Positions 39,880 through 47,237 of a stretch of DNA of 64,000 bases are shown here, piece by piece. The notes under the pieces were generated by a model that saw only the letters and a list, made by a program, of their open reading frames with translations, was not told where the DNA came from and ran no database searches. This stretch comes from Brevundimonas viscosa (GTDB lineage Bacteria > Pseudomonadota > Alphaproteobacteria > Caulobacterales > Caulobacteraceae): the NCBI RefSeq assembly GCF_900116065.1, contig NZ_FOZV01000001.1:620001-684000 (forward strand), read 5' to 3'. How positions within the stretch are numbered: position 1 is the first letter of the stretch; the number at the start of each line of letters is the position of its first letter. The translations under genes were made by a program, and so were the position numbers.

Positions 39880-41547
39880 TCAGGTGGCGATCGTGTTCAG
39901 GTCCCGGTGACGCGTTTCCGGCAGCCACAGCAGGCTGACGATCACGGCGACCAGCGTGAAGAAGACCGAATACCACAGGCCGAAGTAGATGTTCCCCGAC
40001 CACGCCACGAGGGCGAAGCTGGCCGCCGGTAGCAGGCCGCCGACCCAGCCGGTGCCGATGTTGTAGGGCAGGCTCATCGCCGTGTACCGCACCCGCGTCG
40101 GGAACAGCTCGACCAGGGCCGCGGCCTGAGGCCCGTACAGGGCCGTGGCGGCCACCATGAAGACCATCAGGATGGCGAAGACCAGCGGCAGGTTGATGCG
40201 TGCGGGATCCGCGGCGGTCGGGTAGCCGACCTCGGCGAGAGCGCCCTTGATGCGGCCCTCGACGTCCGCCCGGGCCGCGGCCAGCGCCGTCGGGTCGAGG
40301 GCGCGGCCGTCGACCGACCTGACCTCGGTCGCGCCGATCCGCACCACCGCGACGGACCCGGCCGGGGCGGCGGCGTTGGCGTAGGACACCCCGGCGTTGG
40401 ACAGCACGCTCTTGGCGATGTCGCAGCTGCTCGAGAAGGCGGCCTTGCCGATGGGGTCGAACTGCAGGGCGCAGGTCGCCGGGTCGGCCGCCACGGTCAC
40501 CGGCGCCGCCGCCTGGGCCTCGGCCAGGGCGGGGTTGGCGGCGCGCGTCAGGGCGTGGAAGCCGGGGAAGAAGGCGACGAGGGCCAGGATCATGCCGAAC
40601 AGCATCACCGGCTTGCGGCCCACCCGGTCCGACAGCCAGCCGAAGAAGACGTAAAGCCCGGCCGACGCCACGGTCAGCGCCAGCACCAGCTGGTCGACGG
40701 TGTTGGTGTCCACCTTCAGAACCCGCTCCATGAAGAAGCGGGTGTAGAAATAGCCGCAGTACCAGACCGCCCCCTGGGCGATCATGATGCCGAACAGGGC
40801 CAGCAGCACGAAGCGGCCGTTCCGCCACGTCAGGAAGGCCTCGCGGTATGGGGCGCGGTGGTCGGCGTCCGACGCCTCGGCCTCCATCCGCCGGTAGGCG
40901 GGGCTTTCGTTCAGCCGCAGCCGGATCCACAGCGAGATGGCCAGCAGCAGGGCCGACAGCAGGAAGGGAATGCGCCAGCCCCAGGCGTCGAAGGCCTCGG
41001 CCCCGACGGCGGCGCGGGTGGCGAGGATCACGGTCAGCGCCCCGATCAGGCCGAAGGCGGCGGTGGTCTGGATCCAGCCGGTCATGTAGCCGCGCCGCCC
41101 TTGGGGCGCATGCTCGGCCACATAGATGGCCGCGCCGCCGTACTCGCCGCCCAGGGCGAAGCCCTGCAGCATGCGCATGACCAGCAGCAGGATCGGGGCC
41201 GCGATGCCGATCTGGCCGTAGTCGGGCAGCAGGCCGATGGCGACCGTGGCCGCGCCCATTAGGGTGATGGTGACGAGGAAGGTGGTCTTTCGCCCGGTGC
41301 GGTCGCCAAACCAGCCGAACACCAGCGCCCCCAACGGCCGCACCACGAAGCCGAGGCCGAAGGTCAGCAGGGCCATGATGTAGGCGACGGTCTCGCCCGC
41401 GTCGGCGAAGAAGTGCCGTGCGATCACCGTGGCGAGCGAGCCGAAGACGAAGAAGTCGTACCACTCGAAGGCGGTGCCCGCGGCCGAGGCCGTCACCACC
41501 GTGCGCAGCCCCGGCTCGCGCCCGGCCGCCGCGTCCCCTGTCGCCAT
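39880..41547 (-). CDS. MHS-family MFS transporter with periplasmic-type insert
   Basis: A 555-residue transporter of the metabolite:H+ symporter group (ShiA/ProP/KgtP relatives). It begins with the typical GTAFEWYDFFVFGSLATVIA; the MFS motif FGWFGDRTGRKTT and GGEYGGAAIYVAEHAPQGRR are clear. Between two TM helices, at about residues 345-445, is a hydrophilic insert of roughly 100 residues with two Cys (ATCALQF and SSSCDIA), making the protein over 100 residues longer than usual. GGGGAGG precedes the start. The substrate is probably a carboxylate. Confidence 0.87.
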   Translation of the reverse strand: MATGDAAAGREPGLRTVVTASAAGTAFEWYDFFVFGSLATVIARHFFADAGETVAYIMALLTFGLGFVVRPLGALVFGWFGDRTGRKTTFLVTITLMGAATVAIGLLPDYGQIGIAAPILLLVMRMLQGFALGGEYGGAAIYVAEHAPQGRRGYMTGWIQTTAAFGLIGALTVILATRAAVGAEAFDAWGWRIPFLLSALLLAISLWIRLRLNESPAYRRMEAEASDADHRAPYREAFLTWRNGRFVLLALFGIMIAQGAVWYCGYFYTRFFMERVLKVDTNTVDQLVLALTVASAGLYVFFGWLSDRVGRKPVMLFGMILALVAFFPGFHALTRAANPALAEAQAAAPVTVAADPATCALQFDPIGKAAFSSSCDIAKSVLSNAGVSYANAAAPAGSVAVVRIGATEVRSVDGRALDPTALAAARADVEGRIKGALAEVGYPTAADPARINLPLVFAILMVFMVAATALYGPQAAALVELFPTRVRYTAMSLPYNIGTGWVGGLLPAASFALVAWSGNIYFGLWYSVFFTLVAVIVSLLWLPETRHRDLNTIAT

Positions 41548-41894: not shown

Positions 41895-43664
41895 TCAACG
41901 TGACGGGCCCGGGCCGGTTCCCAGATCCGCCGGATCCAAGGGAACGACGGCCTCCGGCGTGGCGAAGGTCATCCGGGCGATGGTCCCGCCGCCGGGCGCA
42001 GGAAGCATCTCGACCTCGCCCCGCAGCTGCTTGGCGAAGGCCCCCATCAGGGTGCGGCCCACGCCGGCGCGGACGGTGTCGTCGACGCCCGGTCCGTTGT
42101 CCTCGACCTCCAGCACGCTGGTGTCGCCGTTCACCCGGAACCGAACCTTGAGGTCGCCGCCGTGTTCGGCGAAGGCGTGCTTCTGGGCGTTGGTGACCGC
42201 CTCGACCAGCCACAGGGCCAGGGGTGCCAGCTTGTCGGGATCCACGACCAGCGAGTCCGCTTCCACCGAGGAGGTGACCAGGTGGCCGCGGCCGCTCTCG
42301 TTGGCGATCAGCTGGCCGACAAGTTCGGTCAGGAAGACGCGCGCATCTGCGTAGCGCAGGTCGTCGCTCTGGTAGAGGGTGCGGTAGATCAGGGCGAGGG
42401 CGGCGATGCGCTGGCGGGTGTCGCCCACCGCGGCGCGGGCCGGCGCGTCCTTCAGCGCCCTCTGCTGCATCGACAGCAGGGACGAGATGATCTGCAGGTT
42501 GTTCTTCACCCGGTGGTGGATCTCGCGCATCAGCGCGTCCTTCTCCGCCAGCGACGCCAGCAGGGCGGCGTCGCGGGTGGTGATGGTCTCGGCCAGGTCA
42601 TCCAGCGTCTTCGCCAGCAGGCGGATCTCGGCCGGAGCGTTGACCGCCTGGACGGGGCGGACGGTGAAGCGGCCGCGGGCATAGATGGCGGCGACCCGCT
42701 CCAGATAGTCCAGCCAGCGAATGATGATCCGTTCGCTGACCAGCATGACCATGGCGAAGGCGGCCAGCCAGGCCCCGAGCGGCAGCAGCAGGAGGCCCAC
42801 AGGGTTCAGTCGCGCCCAGGACAGCAGACCGGGCGAGGGCGCCGAGAGCAGGGCGTACACGTCGCGTCCGGCCAGGGCCGCGCCGGCGAAGACCCGATGT
42901 CCCTCGGAGGTGTCGGCTTCGAAGACGGCCGAGCCGCTGTCCCGCGCGCGTTCGACCCAGCCGGCCAGCGACGGTCCGCCGGTCAGGGCGAAAGCCTGGG
43001 GATCGGTGGCGATCAGAAGCGCCCCCGTCGCGTCTGTCAGCGCCGCCTGGGAATCTTCGGGCAAGGCGGGGTCCGCGACATCTGGCTGCAGGGCGGCGAG
43101 CGGGATCAGGGCCGCCATGGCGCCGTCGAAGGCGCCCAGCGGACGCTCGAGGCGCTGGGCGATGATCATCGCCGGCGGCTGGCCTGGCATCGCGGGGGCT
43201 CGGGCCAGAACGGTGCTCTCGCCGGCCTGCAGGCGCCGGAACCACGGCGCTTCGCGGGCGCGGTTCAACCAGGCCGGAGAGGCTCCGGTCGACCCGCCCG
43301 AAGCGCAGACGGTCTCTCCGGTGGCCGTCACCCGGGCGAGGCCGTCCAGTTCGTCGAGGCGCCCGACGAGATCCGTCAGGCGCGGCTCGCAGAAGACTTC
43401 CAGCCCCACGGGCCGCAAGGCCTGGAGGAGCACGCCGGCGCTGTCGAGCCGTGTCTTGGCGCGGGCGGCGGTTCGCTCGGCGGCCAGCTGCAGGTCAGTC
43501 CGCCGCTCGAGATCCTGTTCGCGAAACTGCGATTGCGCCTGCACCGCCCCGAGCACGAGGATCGGCAGCAGGGCGCCCGCCATGGCGACGCCCAGCCGGA
43601 AGCGGATGCCGTGGATTCCCGGTCGGGCCAGTCCCCGTCCGAGCGTTCGCCCGAGGCGGACCAC
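41895..43664 (-). CDS. phyK: General stress response sensor histidine kinase (PhyK-type)
   Basis: A 589-residue HWE/HisKA_2 kinase. TM1 (residues about 22-43) and TM2 (about 290-312, VGLLLLPLGAWLAAFAMVML) bracket a periplasmic sensor domain with Cys92 (LEVFCEPRL) and a second Cys in GETVCASGG. A HAMP-like linker follows. The phospho-acceptor region MREIHHRVKNNLQIISSLLS has His383/His384, and the ATP site EAVTNAQKHAF is present. In C. crescentus PhyK is encoded beside phyR-nepR-sigT and phosphorylates PhyR; a periplasmic Cys near residue 95 is important there. It starts four bases after the ecfG stop. Confidence 0.87.
   Translation of the reverse strand: MVRLGRTLGRGLARPGIHGIRFRLGVAMAGALLPILVLGAVQAQSQFREQDLERRTDLQLAAERTAARAKTRLDSAGVLLQALRPVGLEVFCEPRLTDLVGRLDELDGLARVTATGETVCASGGSTGASPAWLNRAREAPWFRRLQAGESTVLARAPAMPGQPPAMIIAQRLERPLGAFDGAMAALIPLAALQPDVADPALPEDSQAALTDATGALLIATDPQAFALTGGPSLAGWVERARDSGSAVFEADTSEGHRVFAGAALAGRDVYALLSAPSPGLLSWARLNPVGLLLLPLGAWLAAFAMVMLVSERIIIRWLDYLERVAAIYARGRFTVRPVQAVNAPAEIRLLAKTLDDLAETITTRDAALLASLAEKDALMREIHHRVKNNLQIISSLLSMQQRALKDAPARAAVGDTRQRIAALALIYRTLYQSDDLRYADARVFLTELVGQLIANESGRGHLVTSSVEADSLVVDPDKLAPLALWLVEAVTNAQKHAFAEHGGDLKVRFRVNGDTSVLEVEDNGPGVDDTVRAGVGRTLMGAFAKQLRGEVEMLPAPGGGTIARMTFATPEAVVPLDPADLGTGPGPSR
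41897..41921 (-). promoter_or_regulatory. EcfG-type promoter of the entericidin gene
   Basis: Read on the minus strand: GGAAC (41921-41917), 16 bases, CGTT (41900-41897). This matches the EcfG/sigma-T consensus (GGAAC-N16/17-CGTT). Predicted transcription would start near 41889, giving a leader of about 35 bases to the ATG at 41854. Confidence 0.82.
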
Positions 43665-43668
43665 CGCC

Positions 43669-44277
43669 TCAGTCCCGAACGCTGCTCAGGCGGTCGGCGT
43701 CTGCGAGAATGGAGCGCATGGCGTCGCCGGCCGCGCGCCCGTCACGGGCGTAGCCGCCCTTCTCGAGCGTCGCCTGCAGGGCCTTGCGCGCCCGGGACAC
43801 GCGGCTTTTCACCGTGCCCACCGCGCATTGGCAGATTTCCGCCGCCTCCTCGTAGGCGAAGCCCCCGGCTCCGACCAGGATCAGGGCCTCGCGCTGTTCC
43901 TCGGGCAGGGTCGCCAGCGCCAGACGCAGTTCGTCGAGAGCCACAGGCGACTCCGGGTCGTCGACCGCCACCAGCGTCCGCTCGGCCGCTTCCTGGTCCA
44001 GCTGGGACTGGCGCCACGAGCGCCGCTTCTCCGAGTAGAACTGGTTGCGGAGGATCATGAAGGTCCACGCCTTCATGTTGGTGCCCATCTGATAGCTGGC
44101 CCGGGCGTCCCACGCCTTCATCATGGCGTCCTGGGCGAGGTCGTCGGCCGCCGTCGGATCTCCGGTGAGGGTGCGCGCGAAAGCCCGCAGGTGCGGAATC
44201 AGCGCGACGAGCTCCTTCTTGAAGGCGTCGTCGTCGGCGGAGGGCGGCTTGGGCGGCGGGTTGGACGCACCGCTCAT
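43669..44277 (-). CDS. ecfG: General stress ECF sigma factor EcfG (SigT)
   Basis: A 202-residue ECF sigma factor. Region 2 includes HLRAFARTLTGDPTAADDLA and QDAMMKAWDARASYQMGTNM then KAWTFMILRNQFYSEKRR, the EcfG-type pattern; region 4 is LATLPEEQREALILVGAGGF with YEEAAEICQCAVGTVKSRVS. The sigma factor drives the general stress regulon once NepR is removed. It overlaps nepR by 4 bases, so levels of the two are coupled, and is co-oriented with phyK. Confidence 0.95.
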   Translation of the reverse strand: MSGASNPPPKPPSADDDAFKKELVALIPHLRAFARTLTGDPTAADDLAQDAMMKAWDARASYQMGTNMKAWTFMILRNQFYSEKRRSWRQSQLDQEAAERTLVAVDDPESPVALDELRLALATLPEEQREALILVGAGGFAYEEAAEICQCAVGTVKSRVSRARKALQATLEKGGYARDGRAAGDAMRSILADADRLSSVRD

Positions 44278-44486
44278 GCGCCACCTTCGCCGGCCGTGCG
44301 CTTGTCGGCGCGCCGGAGGATATCGAGAAACTCGTCCGGCACAGGCTCGTTCACGACCTCGTCGAACATATGCCGCAGCTTCACGCCGATGGCCTGCTGG
44401 CGAAGACGCGCCTCCTCCAGGCCGGCGCCCTTGGGCGGCTTGCCCGGGGGGTTGGAATTGTCTGTCATCGAAAAAACGGTCGCCAC
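44274..44486 (-). CDS. nepR: Anti-sigma factor NepR
   Basis: A 70-residue protein. The conserved helices IGVKLRHMFDEVVNEPVPDE and FLDILRRAD are the NepR core that binds EcfG and, under stress, phosphorylated PhyR. The start is a GTG at 44486 (the ATG six codons later at 44468 is an alternative; neither has a strong ribosome binding site). An EcfG-type promoter (44511-44535) precedes it, so the sigma factor activates its own operon together with its inhibitor. Confidence 0.93.
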   Translation of the reverse strand: MATVFSMTDNSNPPGKPPKGAGLEEARLRQQAIGVKLRHMFDEVVNEPVPDEFLDILRRADKRTAGEGGA

Positions 44487-44510: not shown

Positions 44511-44535
44511 AACGCCAGCCTCTCCCTCCGGTTCC
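44511..44535 (-). promoter_or_regulatory. EcfG-type promoter of nepR-ecfG
   Basis: On the minus strand: GGAAC (44535-44531), 16 bases, CGTT (44514-44511). The predicted transcript would begin near 44503, 17 bases before the nepR GTG. Confidence 0.85.
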
Positions 44536-44576: not shown

Positions 44577-44601
44577 GGAACCGTGACCGATTTGATACGT
44601 T
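44577..44601 (+). promoter_or_regulatory. EcfG-type promoter of phyR
   Basis: GGAAC (44577-44581), 16 bases, CGTT (44598-44601), in the intergenic region between nepR and phyR. It would start transcription near 44609, about 50 bases before phyR. The phyR and nepR elements are divergent, with about 40 bases between them. Confidence 0.85.
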
Positions 44602-44657: not shown

Positions 44658-45452
44658 ATGAGCCTGCTGGCACGCCTTGCGCCACACCTTCCCTATGTCC
44701 GTCGTTACGCGCGGGCGCTCACCGGCGACCAGACGACGGGCGACAACTACGTCCGGGTCGCGCTCGAGGCGCTCGCCGCCGGGGAACGCCAGCTTCCCGC
44801 CGAGATGACCCCGCGGGTCGCCCTCTATCATGTGTTCCACGCCATCTGGGCATCCACCGGCGCACGGCTGGAGGACCAGAGCGGGCTGGACAACCGCGAC
44901 GATCCGTCCAACCGGCTGATGCGCATCGCGCCGCGCTCGCGCCAGGCCTTCCTGCTCACCGCTCTCGAAGGGTTCACGCCCTCGGAAGCGGCCCAGATCC
45001 TCGACGCCGACGCCCAGGATGTGGAGCGGCTGATCGGCGAGGCACAGTCCGACATCGACGCCGAACTGGCCACGGACGTGCTGATCATCGAGGACGAGGC
45101 GATCATCTCTGCCGATATCGAAAGCCTGGTGAAGGAACTGGGCCACCGCGTCACCGGCACGGCCACCACCCACGACGAGGCGGTCGACGCCGTCGCGCGC
45201 CACCGTCCGGGCCTGGTGCTGGCCGACATCCAGCTGGCCGACGGCTCCTCGGGCATCGACGCGGTCAAGGACATCCTCAAGCGCATCGACGTGCCGGTGA
45301 TCTTCATCACCGCCTTCCCGGAGCGCCTGCTCACCGGCGAGCGGCCGGAGCCGACCTTCCTGATCACCAAGCCGTTCCAGCCGGAGACGGTGAAGGCGGC
45401 GATCAGCCAGGCCCTGTTCTTCCATCCGTCGCGGCAGAAGGAAGCCGCCTGA
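44658..45452 (+). CDS. phyR: General stress response regulator PhyR
   Basis: A 264-residue response regulator with an N-terminal EcfG-like domain (residues 1-138; LPYVRRYARALTGDQTTGDN and LTALEGFTPSEAAQILD) that mimics a sigma factor, and a C-terminal receiver domain. The phospho-acceptor is Asp190 (LVLADIQLADG), with acidic residues in IIEDEAIIS, Thr218 (FITAFPERL) and Lys238 (LITKPFQ). On phosphorylation it captures NepR and frees EcfG. Divergent from nepR-ecfG-phyK; a terminator follows. Confidence 0.97.
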   Translation: MSLLARLAPHLPYVRRYARALTGDQTTGDNYVRVALEALAAGERQLPAEMTPRVALYHVFHAIWASTGARLEDQSGLDNRDDPSNRLMRIAPRSRQAFLLTALEGFTPSEAAQILDADAQDVERLIGEAQSDIDAELATDVLIIEDEAIISADIESLVKELGHRVTGTATTHDEAVDAVARHRPGLVLADIQLADGSSGIDAVKDILKRIDVPVIFITAFPERLLTGERPEPTFLITKPFQPETVKAAISQALFFHPSRQKEAA

Positions 45453-45521: not shown

Positions 45522-45902
45522 CTATTGACCCTCGACCGGGGTCGCCGCCGGCTCGGCGGCGACGGTCGGCGCGTTGACGTTCGGCGCCTCGCCGGTGGGC
45601 GGGGCGGTCGGTTCGCCGGTGGCGGTGGTCGGGGCGTCGGCGGCCGGGATCCGGCTCCCGCCCTCGCCCTGGAAGGCGGCGGCGTCGATGGGCTGGTCCC
45701 CGTCGTTGGCGTTGGTCTGCGACAGACGCCCGGCGGAGGCGAACCAGATCACCGCGAAGGCGATGGTCACCAGCGCGATCCCCACCAGGAGCACCATCAG
45801 GATGCGCTTTCCGCCGCGGCCCTGACGGACGTACTGGGCCTCGACGGGCCGGCCTTCGTGGACGGCGTCGGCGGAGTGGTCGTGCGGAGATTCGTGGGTC
45901 AT
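45522..45902 (-). CDS. Single-pass membrane protein in the stress locus
   Basis: A 126-residue protein with a His/Asp-rich cytoplasmic head (MTHESPHDHSADAVHEG), one TM helix (ILMVLLVGIALVTIAFAVIW) and a Pro/Thr/Ala-rich, acidic, probably disordered periplasmic tail. GGGAGG is well placed before the start. No family recognised. An EcfG-type promoter (45940-45964) stands about 38 bases upstream of the start, so it is predicted to be a general-stress gene. It is convergent with phyR. Confidence 0.75.
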   Translation of the reverse strand: MTHESPHDHSADAVHEGRPVEAQYVRQGRGGKRILMVLLVGIALVTIAFAVIWFASAGRLSQTNANDGDQPIDAAAFQGEGGSRIPAADAPTTATGEPTAPPTGEAPNVNAPTVAAEPAATPVEGQ

Positions 45903-45939: not shown

Positions 45940-45964
45940 AACGGATCGCGAGCGTCGCCGTTCC
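45940..45964 (-). promoter_or_regulatory. EcfG-type promoter of the membrane-protein gene
   Basis: On the minus strand: GGAAC (45964-45960), 16 bases, CGTT (45943-45940). Predicted start of transcription near 45932, with a 30-base leader containing GGGAGG. Confidence 0.82.
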
Positions 45965-46002: not shown

Positions 46003-46027
46003 GGAACCGCGCCGGGGCGCCCCCGTT
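46003..46027 (+). promoter_or_regulatory. EcfG-type promoter of a small RNA
   Basis: GGAAC (46003-46007), 16 bases, CGTT (46024-46027). No coding sequence starts downstream before a strong terminator at 46121-46145, which implies a short non-coding transcript. It is divergent from the element at 45940-45964. Confidence 0.8.
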
Positions 46028-46034
46028 ATCTCGC

Positions 46035-46146
46035 TGCGGAGGCGGCGACGCCCCCCCGACTTGAGACCGGCCACAGCTGGTCTGTCGCCTCCGCACCTCA
46101 TTCTCGATGATGCCACTTCGGGCGGACCTTCGGGTCCGCCTTTTTC
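46035..46146 (+). ncRNA. Candidate stress sRNA, GsrN-like
   Basis: A predicted RNA of about 110 nt between the EcfG-type promoter and an intrinsic terminator. Its 5' half forms a stem of TGCGGAGGCG (46035-46044) with CGCCTCCGCA (46086-46095). Inside it are a run of seven C (46051-46057) and a small hairpin from AGACC (46064-46068) with GGTCT (46079-46083). A single-stranded linker leads to the terminator. The Caulobacter sRNA GsrN is directly activated by sigma-T and, as I recall, pairs with katG mRNA through a C-rich exposed loop; promoter, size, C-run and neighbourhood fit. Homology is inferred, not aligned. Confidence 0.72.
46121..46145 (+). terminator. Intrinsic terminator of the sRNA
   Basis: GGCGGACC (46121-46128), TTCG loop, GGTCCGCC (46133-46140), then five T. 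The UUCG tetraloop and perfect 8-bp stem make a textbook terminator. No protein-coding gene ends just upstream on this strand. Confidence 0.92.
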
Positions 46147-46214
46147 TTTCCCGACTGGACAGCCCGGCCCGGCGCGCCACTATGTGCGTCCACAAAGAAA
46201 ACCCGGAGGAGCCA

Positions 46215-47237
46215 GTGGCCCGAACCAATCGTCAGTGGGTGCTGCGTCAGCGGCCGATGGGGCTGATCAAGCCCGGCGACCTCGAACTCGTCGAGGCGAC
46301 CCTCCCGGACCTGAACGACGGCGAGGTGCTGATCCGCACCGTCTATCTCTCGCTGGACCCCACCAACCGCACCTGGATGAACGACACCGAAGGCTATCTG
46401 CCGCCGGTGCCGCTGGGCGGCGTCATGCGCGGCCTGACCCTCGGCGTGGTCGAGGAGAGCCGGTCCGGACGCTTCGCCGTGGGCGAGGTGGTGACCACCG
46501 CCGCCGGCGGTTGGTCGGACTATGCGGTGGTCTCCGACCGTGAGGCCTCGCGGGTGCATCGGGCGCCGGGCCTGCCGCTGACCGCCAACATGTCGGTGCT
46601 CGGCATGACCGGCATGACCGCGTGGTTCGGGGTCACCGACGTGCTGAAGCCGCGGGCCGGAGAGACGCTGGTGATCTCCGCCGCCGCCGGGGCGGTGGGC
46701 TCGATCGCGGGCCAGGTGGCGAGGGCGCATGGGGCGCGGGTGATCGGCATCGCGGGCGGACCCGACAAATGCCGCTGGCTGACTGAAGAACTCGGTTTCG
46801 ACGCGGCCATCGACTACAAGAACGAGGACGTCGGCGACGCCCTCGACCGGCTGGCCCCGGACGGGGTCGAGATGAATTTCGAGAACGTCGGCGGCGACAT
46901 CATGATCGCGGTGTTCAACCGCCTGAAGGTGCACGGGCGCATGGCCGTGTGCGGCCTGATCTCGGCCTATAACGCCACGCGCATGCCGCCCTCGCCGAAC
47001 TTCGGCCGGATCATCACCCACCGACTGAACCTGCAGGGCTTCCTGGTGATGGACTATGCGCCGCGCGCGAAGGAGATGGTGACCGGCATGGCTCCCATGG
47101 TCGTGGACGGCCGCATCAAGTGGAAGGTGCACGTCGCCGACGGACTGGAAGGCGCCCTCGACTCGCTGAACCGCTTGTTCACCGGCGACCACGACGGCAA
47201 GCTGCTGGTGCGCGTGTCGGAAGAACCGGCCGCCTGA
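46215..47237 (+). CDS. NADP-dependent oxidoreductase, zinc-type MDR, CurA/LTB4DH-like
   Basis: A 340-residue medium-chain reductase. The start is a GTG at 46215 with GGAGGAG upstream; a longer frame to 46107 would run through the sRNA terminator and is rejected. Motifs: VYLSLDPTNRTWMNDTEGYL near the N-terminus, nucleotide site VISAAAGAVGSIAGQVA with ARVIGIAGG, and FENVGGDIMIAVFNRLKVHG. It lacks catalytic zinc ligands, like leukotriene B4 12-hydroxydehydrogenase/curcumin reductase relatives that reduce alpha,beta-unsaturated ketones. Followed 15 bases later by a small MaoC-like gene. Confidence 0.9.
   Translation: MARTNRQWVLRQRPMGLIKPGDLELVEATLPDLNDGEVLIRTVYLSLDPTNRTWMNDTEGYLPPVPLGGVMRGLTLGVVEESRSGRFAVGEVVTTAAGGWSDYAVVSDREASRVHRAPGLPLTANMSVLGMTGMTAWFGVTDVLKPRAGETLVISAAAGAVGSIAGQVARAHGARVIGIAGGPDKCRWLTEELGFDAAIDYKNEDVGDALDRLAPDGVEMNFENVGGDIMIAVFNRLKVHGRMAVCGLISAYNATRMPPSPNFGRIITHRLNLQGFLVMDYAPRAKEMVTGMAPMVVDGRIKWKVHVADGLEGALDSLNRLFTGDHDGKLLVRVSEEPAA

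Follow-up and report, generated by a model that had tools for sequence, protein, structure and literature searches.

The 64,000-nucleotide stretch of Brevundimonas viscosa DNA analysed here (the window) carries within its general-stress locus a single-copy orthologue of gsrN, the small RNA gene described in Caulobacter. It stands behind a match to the EcfG-type promoter, its two 5' helices are conserved among relatives, and phyR, nepR, ecfG and a phyK-like gene lie beside it. We hold it very likely that this gene gives rise to an EcfG-driven RNA of about 105-110 nt whose loop pairs with G-rich mRNAs, and that katG is probably not the target of its C-run. The unit is a known sRNA in a known place, and what our analysis adds is the negative result for katG together with the variable 5' domain in relatives.

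By analogy with Caulobacter, stress would lead to phosphorylation of PhyR, which would bind NepR and release EcfG; EcfG would then use the box at 46003-46027 to transcribe a GsrN of about 105-110 nt, and the intrinsic terminator would end the transcript. In the 5' half of this RNA, the outer stem and the inner hairpin are predicted to leave ACGCCCCCCCGACUUGAG largely unpaired, and this loop may pair with G-rich stretches of mRNAs and alter their translation or stability, as in Caulobacter.

Architecture and identity of the sRNA unit

The unit and its neighbours are laid out in the window as follows:

41895-43664, minus strand: phyK-like HisKA_2 sensor kinase (Pfam)
43669-44277, minus strand: ecfG sigma factor (Pfam)
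44274-44486, minus strand: nepR (Pfam), with an EcfG box upstream at 44511-44535, minus strand
44658-45452, plus strand: phyR (Pfam), with an EcfG box upstream at 44577-44601, plus strand
45522-45902, minus strand: small membrane-protein gene, 126 aa (no Pfam match; helix by inspection)
45940-45964, minus strand: divergent EcfG box before the small membrane-protein gene (sequence match)
46003-46027, plus strand: EcfG-type promoter, GGAAC-N16-CGTT (sequence match only)
46038-46141, plus strand: gsrN orthologue, span of the RF01529 model (98.2 bits, full model 1-106)
46038-46047, plus strand: outer stem, 5' arm (partner 46083-46092)
46051-46057, plus strand: seven-C run, putative target-recognition seed, followed by GACUUGAG at 46058-46065
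46065-46082, plus strand: inner hairpin (fold and alignment of 54 sequences)
46083-46092, plus strand: outer stem, 3' arm (fold and alignment)
46096-46118, plus strand: 3' module CCUCAUUCUCGAUGAUGCCACUU (alignment)
46120-46149, plus strand: predicted intrinsic terminator and T-rich tail
46215-47237, plus strand: downstream oxidoreductase (ADH_N_2 / ADH_zinc_N; Pfam)

The original prediction of a GsrN-type RNA between an EcfG-type promoter and a terminator agrees well with these features. The promoter lies exactly where it had been placed, and the start site is probably at about 46035, a few nucleotides 5' of the model span, to judge from the EcfG box. The terminator stem (46120-46141) has 9 pairs followed by a T-rich tail, from which a transcript of about 100 nt, as in GsrN, is predicted. 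No credible ORF was found over the unit, as had been claimed: the listed ORFs are mechanical overlaps, and a protein-coding stretch was rejected on that ground. One of them, from 46107, extends the oxidoreductase gene upstream in frame; the likely start of that gene, chosen by inspection, is the GTG at 46215, preceded by GGAGGAG. The predicted fold of the transcript 46035-46146 (-55.6 kcal/mol, z -4.52, as low in none of 200 shuffles) has an outer stem of 12 pairs and an inner hairpin of 8, with the C-run exposed, so that the exposed C-rich 5' loop typical of GsrN, between outer stem and inner hairpin, is present much as the first reading of the sequence had described it.

A covariance search, which had been proposed as a check on the likeness to GsrN, gave a clear answer. 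The model RF01529 (CC3552) matches at 46038-46141 on the plus strand with 98.2 bits against a cut-off of 50 (E 7.3e-15), over all 106 model positions; this is the sole Rfam match over threshold in the 64-kb window (cmscan) and the only RF01529 match over the cut-off in the whole genome. A second gsrN copy was rejected, the four other RF01529 matches in the genome reaching only 14.9-22.3 bits, and the 3' module recurs within 3 mismatches at a single other place, with 3 mismatches. A literature search for the name CC3552, which reportedly traces to Landt et al. 2008, found nothing. We infer that RF01529 is GsrN because, of 14 control genomes, C. vibrioides alone exceeds the cut-off, because the published six C occur in two of the four stretches labelled C. 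vibrioides (L040 and L080; the other two have seven C instead), because 11 nt of the published CCNA_00894 target site (UCAAGUCGGGG) are an exact complement of the loop, and because the katG site GUCGGGG is an exact complement of the loop as well. The CCNA_00894 site and the six C of GsrN were published by Tien et al. 2018 (PMC5869019, Table 1), and the Rfam name does not occur in that paper. With its full RF01529 match, EcfG box, terminator and helix covariation over 54 sequences, the window unit is therefore a GsrN orthologue, single copy, in Brevundimonas, and its expression is predicted. Under Infernal's stricter filters, an RF01529 match at E <= 1e-3 was obtained in 207 of 299 sampled genomes of the window's family (200 over the cut-off) and in 27 of 150 genomes of an order sample, all 27 from that family. 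Membership in SorY (RF02651) was rejected at 22.5 bits, far under its cut-off of 111, as was membership in the CcsR1, suhB/mmgR, livK and DUF3577 RNA families, all far under cut-off.

The general-stress locus and its conservation

The pattern GGAAC-N15-17-CGTT occurs five times in the 64 kb, always within 41.9-46.0 kb, against an average of 1.03 and at most 4 occurrences in 100 dinucleotide shuffles. One box each stands before phyR, before nepR-ecfG, before gsrN and, divergently, before the membrane-protein gene, and the fifth lies at the phyK 3' end. With the looser GGAAC-N17-GTT these five are recovered and two others elsewhere in the window are added (shuffles: mean 0.89, maximum 5). The box at the 3' end of phyK (41897-41921, minus strand) precedes, by about 350 nt, a gene on the same strand (39880-41547) that was assigned by inspection to the MFS-type transporters. 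The divergent box before the membrane-protein gene recurs in 37 of the 40 examinable Brevundimonas loci (43 listed), and the background for it is a one-strand box in 73 of 684 equal-length stretches of the same loci, real boxes included.

The linkage of the sRNA to phyR-nepR-ecfG-phyK had been put forward as a point of interest. It is present in the window, but it is a reported rule and therefore not new: Tien et al. 2018 (PMC5869019) describe GsrN homologues found by BLASTn in Caulobacter, Brevundimonas and Phenylobacterium as typically proximal to ecfG, nepR and phyR, with C. crescentus as a notable exception. This family trait, proximity to the general-stress locus, is found in the window and in its relatives. 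A search for literature on GsrN or a general-stress small RNA in Brevundimonas or Caulobacteraceae found only that paper, subscription journals being mostly uncovered.

A scan of the named genomes with the loop pattern gave at least 119 stretches, of which the flanks show 104 to be genuine, the other 15 being chance matches that, among the matches listed, fall in other groups, one Bradyrhizobium among them. We examined 103 of the 104, setting aside C. vibrioides DSM 9893 (L080), whose match lies at the edge of its stretch. Among the matches listed, 98 of these 103 have an EcfG box at most 60 nt upstream of the loop (three of the other five are cut by the stretch edge), and in 85 the stretch, up to 8 kb long, also encodes PhyR, NepR or EcfG at more than 50% identity, with a median distance to PhyR of 733 nt (range 92-1425, n=85). 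Of the remaining 18, 14 lie within 1 kb of the edge of their stretch, and L059, L103, L123 and L124 do not. Covariation was measured on an alignment of the window and 53 relatives, hand-chosen from 100 distinct ones among the matches listed. For the 17 base pairs that make up the two 5' helices, 98.7% of cells in these 54 sequences are paired, and sliding the helix partner lowers pairing to 59.1% or less; 9 of the 17 pairs change on both sides, with 67 such cells against 21.1 in shuffles, and in the inner hairpin 6 of 7 pairs do so. Four of the five covariation measures were reached by none of 500 shuffles, and the fifth, further pair types, by 8. In the PhyR tree, whose bootstrap is not fully settled and in which the base of this clade is unresolved, the window falls in a 44-row clade (98/95) with B. 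alba, basaltis, lenta, intermedia and mediterranea.

The katG leader as a proposed target

katG is present in the window's genome, about 80 kb upstream, and the original prediction suggested that the C-run might pair with its leader. This part of the prediction was not borne out. G-runs in this leader do not exceed three nucleotides, a search in it for a complement of the C-run found none, and the longest perfect complement of the loop, CTCAA, is 5 nt long and lies outside the C-run. A complement of the C-rich loop in the katG leader, a functional trait of C. crescentus GsrN and not a condition of homology, was not found here. In C. crescentus the katG site, the one target site that has been verified, is GUCGGGG and makes up the first 7 nt of the katG mRNA (PMC5869019), and the katG leader of C. 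vibrioides DSM 9893 has GTCGGGG at -39. We compared KatG proteins of the named genomes and of the best 29 of the 54 matching genus genomes besides the window, in a tree of 49 proteins that leaves out L203 (bad start), L179 (split gene) and the duplicates L185 and L205. The window's KatG lies in a 24-row clade of Brevundimonas, Phenylobacterium and C. segnis FS (100/99), and that of C. vibrioides in another (92/91), where further Brevundimonas also fall. Because KatG belongs to a different clade from that of C. vibrioides and its leader has no complement of the C-run, the extrapolation to katG is unsupported here, and by sequence comparison katG is probably no target of the C-run in this genome.

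The leaders were grouped by clade, with the long-branched L195 omitted and genus leaders taken from the best-scoring loci listed. In the window's clade the mean longest complement of the loop is 4.42 nt against 5.13 in shuffles for the Brevundimonas leaders (GTCGGGG in 0/19, among the matches listed) and 4.40 against 5.21 for those of Phenylobacterium and C. segnis (0/5). In the other clade it is 5.86 against 5.16 for Caulobacter (1/7) and 5.25 against 4.74 for Brevundimonas (0/12, among the matches listed), and the remaining leaders have 5.00 against 5.07 (0/5). Since GTCGGGG is found in only one of the seven Caulobacter leaders, even Caulobacter does not have the exact site throughout, and this count, with the small excess in the same group, makes the leader-complement statistic a weak one. 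The positive-control leader itself reaches p 0.07 and most single leaders are unremarkable by exact complements, a weak statistic for a short seed. By the full-duplex energy of loop and leader, the positive control, C. vibrioides DSM 9893 (z -0.42), does not stand out from the other leaders; the argument on katG is built on exact complements. We also considered, and rejected, that the katG types differ in the strength of their Shine-Dalgarno sequences (GGAGG in 17/19, 0/12 and 6/7). In the other clade, the katG leader of G258 (L187) has a 9-nt perfect loop complement, CTCAAGTCG, at -35, which could be chance among some 50 leaders.

Of 27 named genomes that keep the canonical loop, five gave no katG, although drafts may be incomplete: B. 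nasdae, C. ginsengisoli, Caulobacter sp. 17J80-11 and two MAGs. A C-run kept where a katG site, or katG itself, was not found suggests that other targets maintain selection on the loop. A scan of the window's genome for CAAGTCGGGG gave five sites besides gsrN (25 for the reversed control pattern), none of which is a clear 5' leader by a simple ORF check, L216 being ambiguous in this respect. L216 (G000:C12:22763-22772) has a 12-nt perfect loop complement, CTCAAGTCGGGG, and lies, by inspection, apparently just 3' of a stop codon and 38 nt before a mechanical ORF.

Variation of the 5' domain and readings of the RNA

Fifteen genomes of the genus were taken for closer comparison, the 12 listed without an RF01529 match at E <= 1e-3 and three under the cut-off. 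NepR is found in 14 of the 15; in the 14 stretches retrieved, PhyR is always present and an EcfG box stands at the place of gsrN in 13. Six of them (L231-L236, genomes G264, G195, G122, G234, G228 and G276) have a GsrN-like RNA behind the EcfG box, flanked by the membrane-protein gene and by the same oxidoreductase, at 78.7-79.7% identity. It is predicted to fold into an outer stem, a loop (U/G)AUUCCCCC (four C in L233) and an inner hairpin, which is less clear in L232, where 23 of 200 shuffles fold as well; 3' of the hairpin follow the module CUCAUUCUCGAUGAUGCGACU (UUCAUU in L236) and the terminator. The loop has thus changed from ACG-C7-GACUUGAG to (G/U)AUU-C5 (C4 in one) on a two-helix architecture that is the same in most, and RF01529 misses five of the six and scores the sixth under the cut-off. 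katG is absent from five of these genomes and present in G276; in the genus, 54 of 61 genomes have a katG match. Since the six genomes form one clade, they stand for at most a few events and provide no test. Three further loci (L238-L240, genomes G204, G177 and G102, all with katG) have the same place, EcfG box and terminator and keep the 3' module (varied in L238), and their 5' halves are unrelated to that of GsrN, the one in L239 being a single long predicted hairpin. L241-L244 keep the C-run and not GACUUGAG. In L237 (G183), no EcfG box, gsrN or membrane-protein gene was found, the gap between phyR and the oxidoreductase being about 150 nt. The PhyR tree groups the six loci with 99/96 support and the three with 100/100, each as a clade of its own nested in the 44-row clade; L241-L244 and the named L068 are not part of that larger clade. 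That the canonical loop is the older state is read from its presence in Caulobacter and Phenylobacterium.

As for the 3' module, 43 canonical Brevundimonas loci are listed, two of them outside the loop expression, and among the 33 distinct remaining sequences 31 keep CCTCATTCTCGATGATGC and 28 the exact seven-C loop, a comparison that favours the loop because the rows were chosen by it. TCGATGATGC occurs in 65 of the 104 named family relatives among the matches listed, and many Caulobacter sequences have another 3' linker. A model of the 3' module, R1, was trained on L231, L234, L236 and L238-L240 among others and matches there by construction. At E <= 0.01 it gives weak matches in 294 of 299 family and 248 of 385 class genomes, many of which cover the terminator part only; among the matches listed of the class search, those of at least 40 bits are in the window's genus only and the best one outside is partial, at 36.5 bits. 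It is tempting to propose, as a tentative view to which we give slightly less than an even chance, that GsrN is modular, with locus, EcfG promoter, 3' module and terminator fixed and the 5' target-recognition domain rewritten at least twice in Brevundimonas. If so, the post-transcriptional arm of the stress regulon would acquire new targets in one lineage after another, and only part of the family would act on katG, the textbook target.

Three other readings of the unit have to be set against an EcfG-driven RNA that pairs with G-rich mRNAs. That an unexpressed G+C-rich stretch merely resembles an sRNA gene has a negligible probability in our view: the status of the unit is read from sequence alone, but a chance hairpin is rejected by the RF01529 score of 98.2 bits (E 7.3e-15), the fold z of -4.52 and the covariation in relatives. 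Peroxide protection as in Caulobacter, with the C-run pairing to the katG leader, seems to us quite improbable. katG is there, some 80 kb away, the loop keeps the nucleotides CCCCGAC that partner C. crescentus katG, and C. vibrioides DSM 9893 keeps GTCGGGG at -39; against this stand the 5-nt complement off the C-run, the 19 Brevundimonas leaders of the window's clade, which among the matches listed lie under their shuffled mean by what is a weak statistic, and the placement of the two KatG proteins in different clades.

It appears rather unlikely, though less so than pairing with katG, that the RNA acts mainly via the 3' module CCUCAUUCUCGAUGAUGCNACUU, which would serve as a second seed or bind Hfq, with the 5' domain tuning stability or a varying set of targets. 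The two Brevundimonas clades that rewrite the 5' domain and keep 3' module, terminator, EcfG box and place speak for such a role, and Tien et al. (PMC5869019) give 27 predicted interactions with the 3' exposed region beside 32 with the C-rich loop, among 67 pulled-down genes and regions, and have a section headed 'Hfq stabilizes full-length GsrN'. However, the same source reports the 5' isoform of GsrN as sufficient for peroxide protection in C. crescentus, and TCGATGATGC is limited to the 65 of 104 relatives given above, with another linker in many Caulobacter. Pairing of the 5' loop with G-rich mRNAs remains our preferred reading. Covariance model, promoter and synteny together confirm a known stress sRNA here, and the function for which it is best known cannot simply be assumed for this genome; a loop kept without katG makes the osmotic-stress target of GsrN approachable by comparison, and the rewritten 5' domains of two Brevundimonas clades offer a natural experiment on target change in an sRNA of a stress regulon.

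Among known systems, the window RNA is closest to GsrN of C. crescentus (ccna_R0081, PMC5869019), with which it has in common the EcfG/sigmaT promoter, the length and the 3' terminator, as well as the outer stem, the exposed C-run, the inner hairpin and the loop nucleotides CCCCGAC that pair with katG there. The two differ in the C count, seven here and six in C. crescentus, and in position, gsrN being near phyR-nepR-ecfG in the window and distal in C. crescentus; the 3' linker also differs in alignment from that of the C. vibrioides stretch L040. Further traits that mark GsrN are sigma-dependent expression, a 5' isoform made by endonucleolytic cleavage and stabilisation by Hfq. SorY, the singlet oxygen resistance RNA Y (RF02651), bears a weak likeness, mainly to the 3' half of the window RNA. 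To RF01529 (CC3552) the window RNA is a full match with no difference of substance, whereas the Brevundimonas relatives with a rewritten 5' domain are missed by this model or score under its cut-off.
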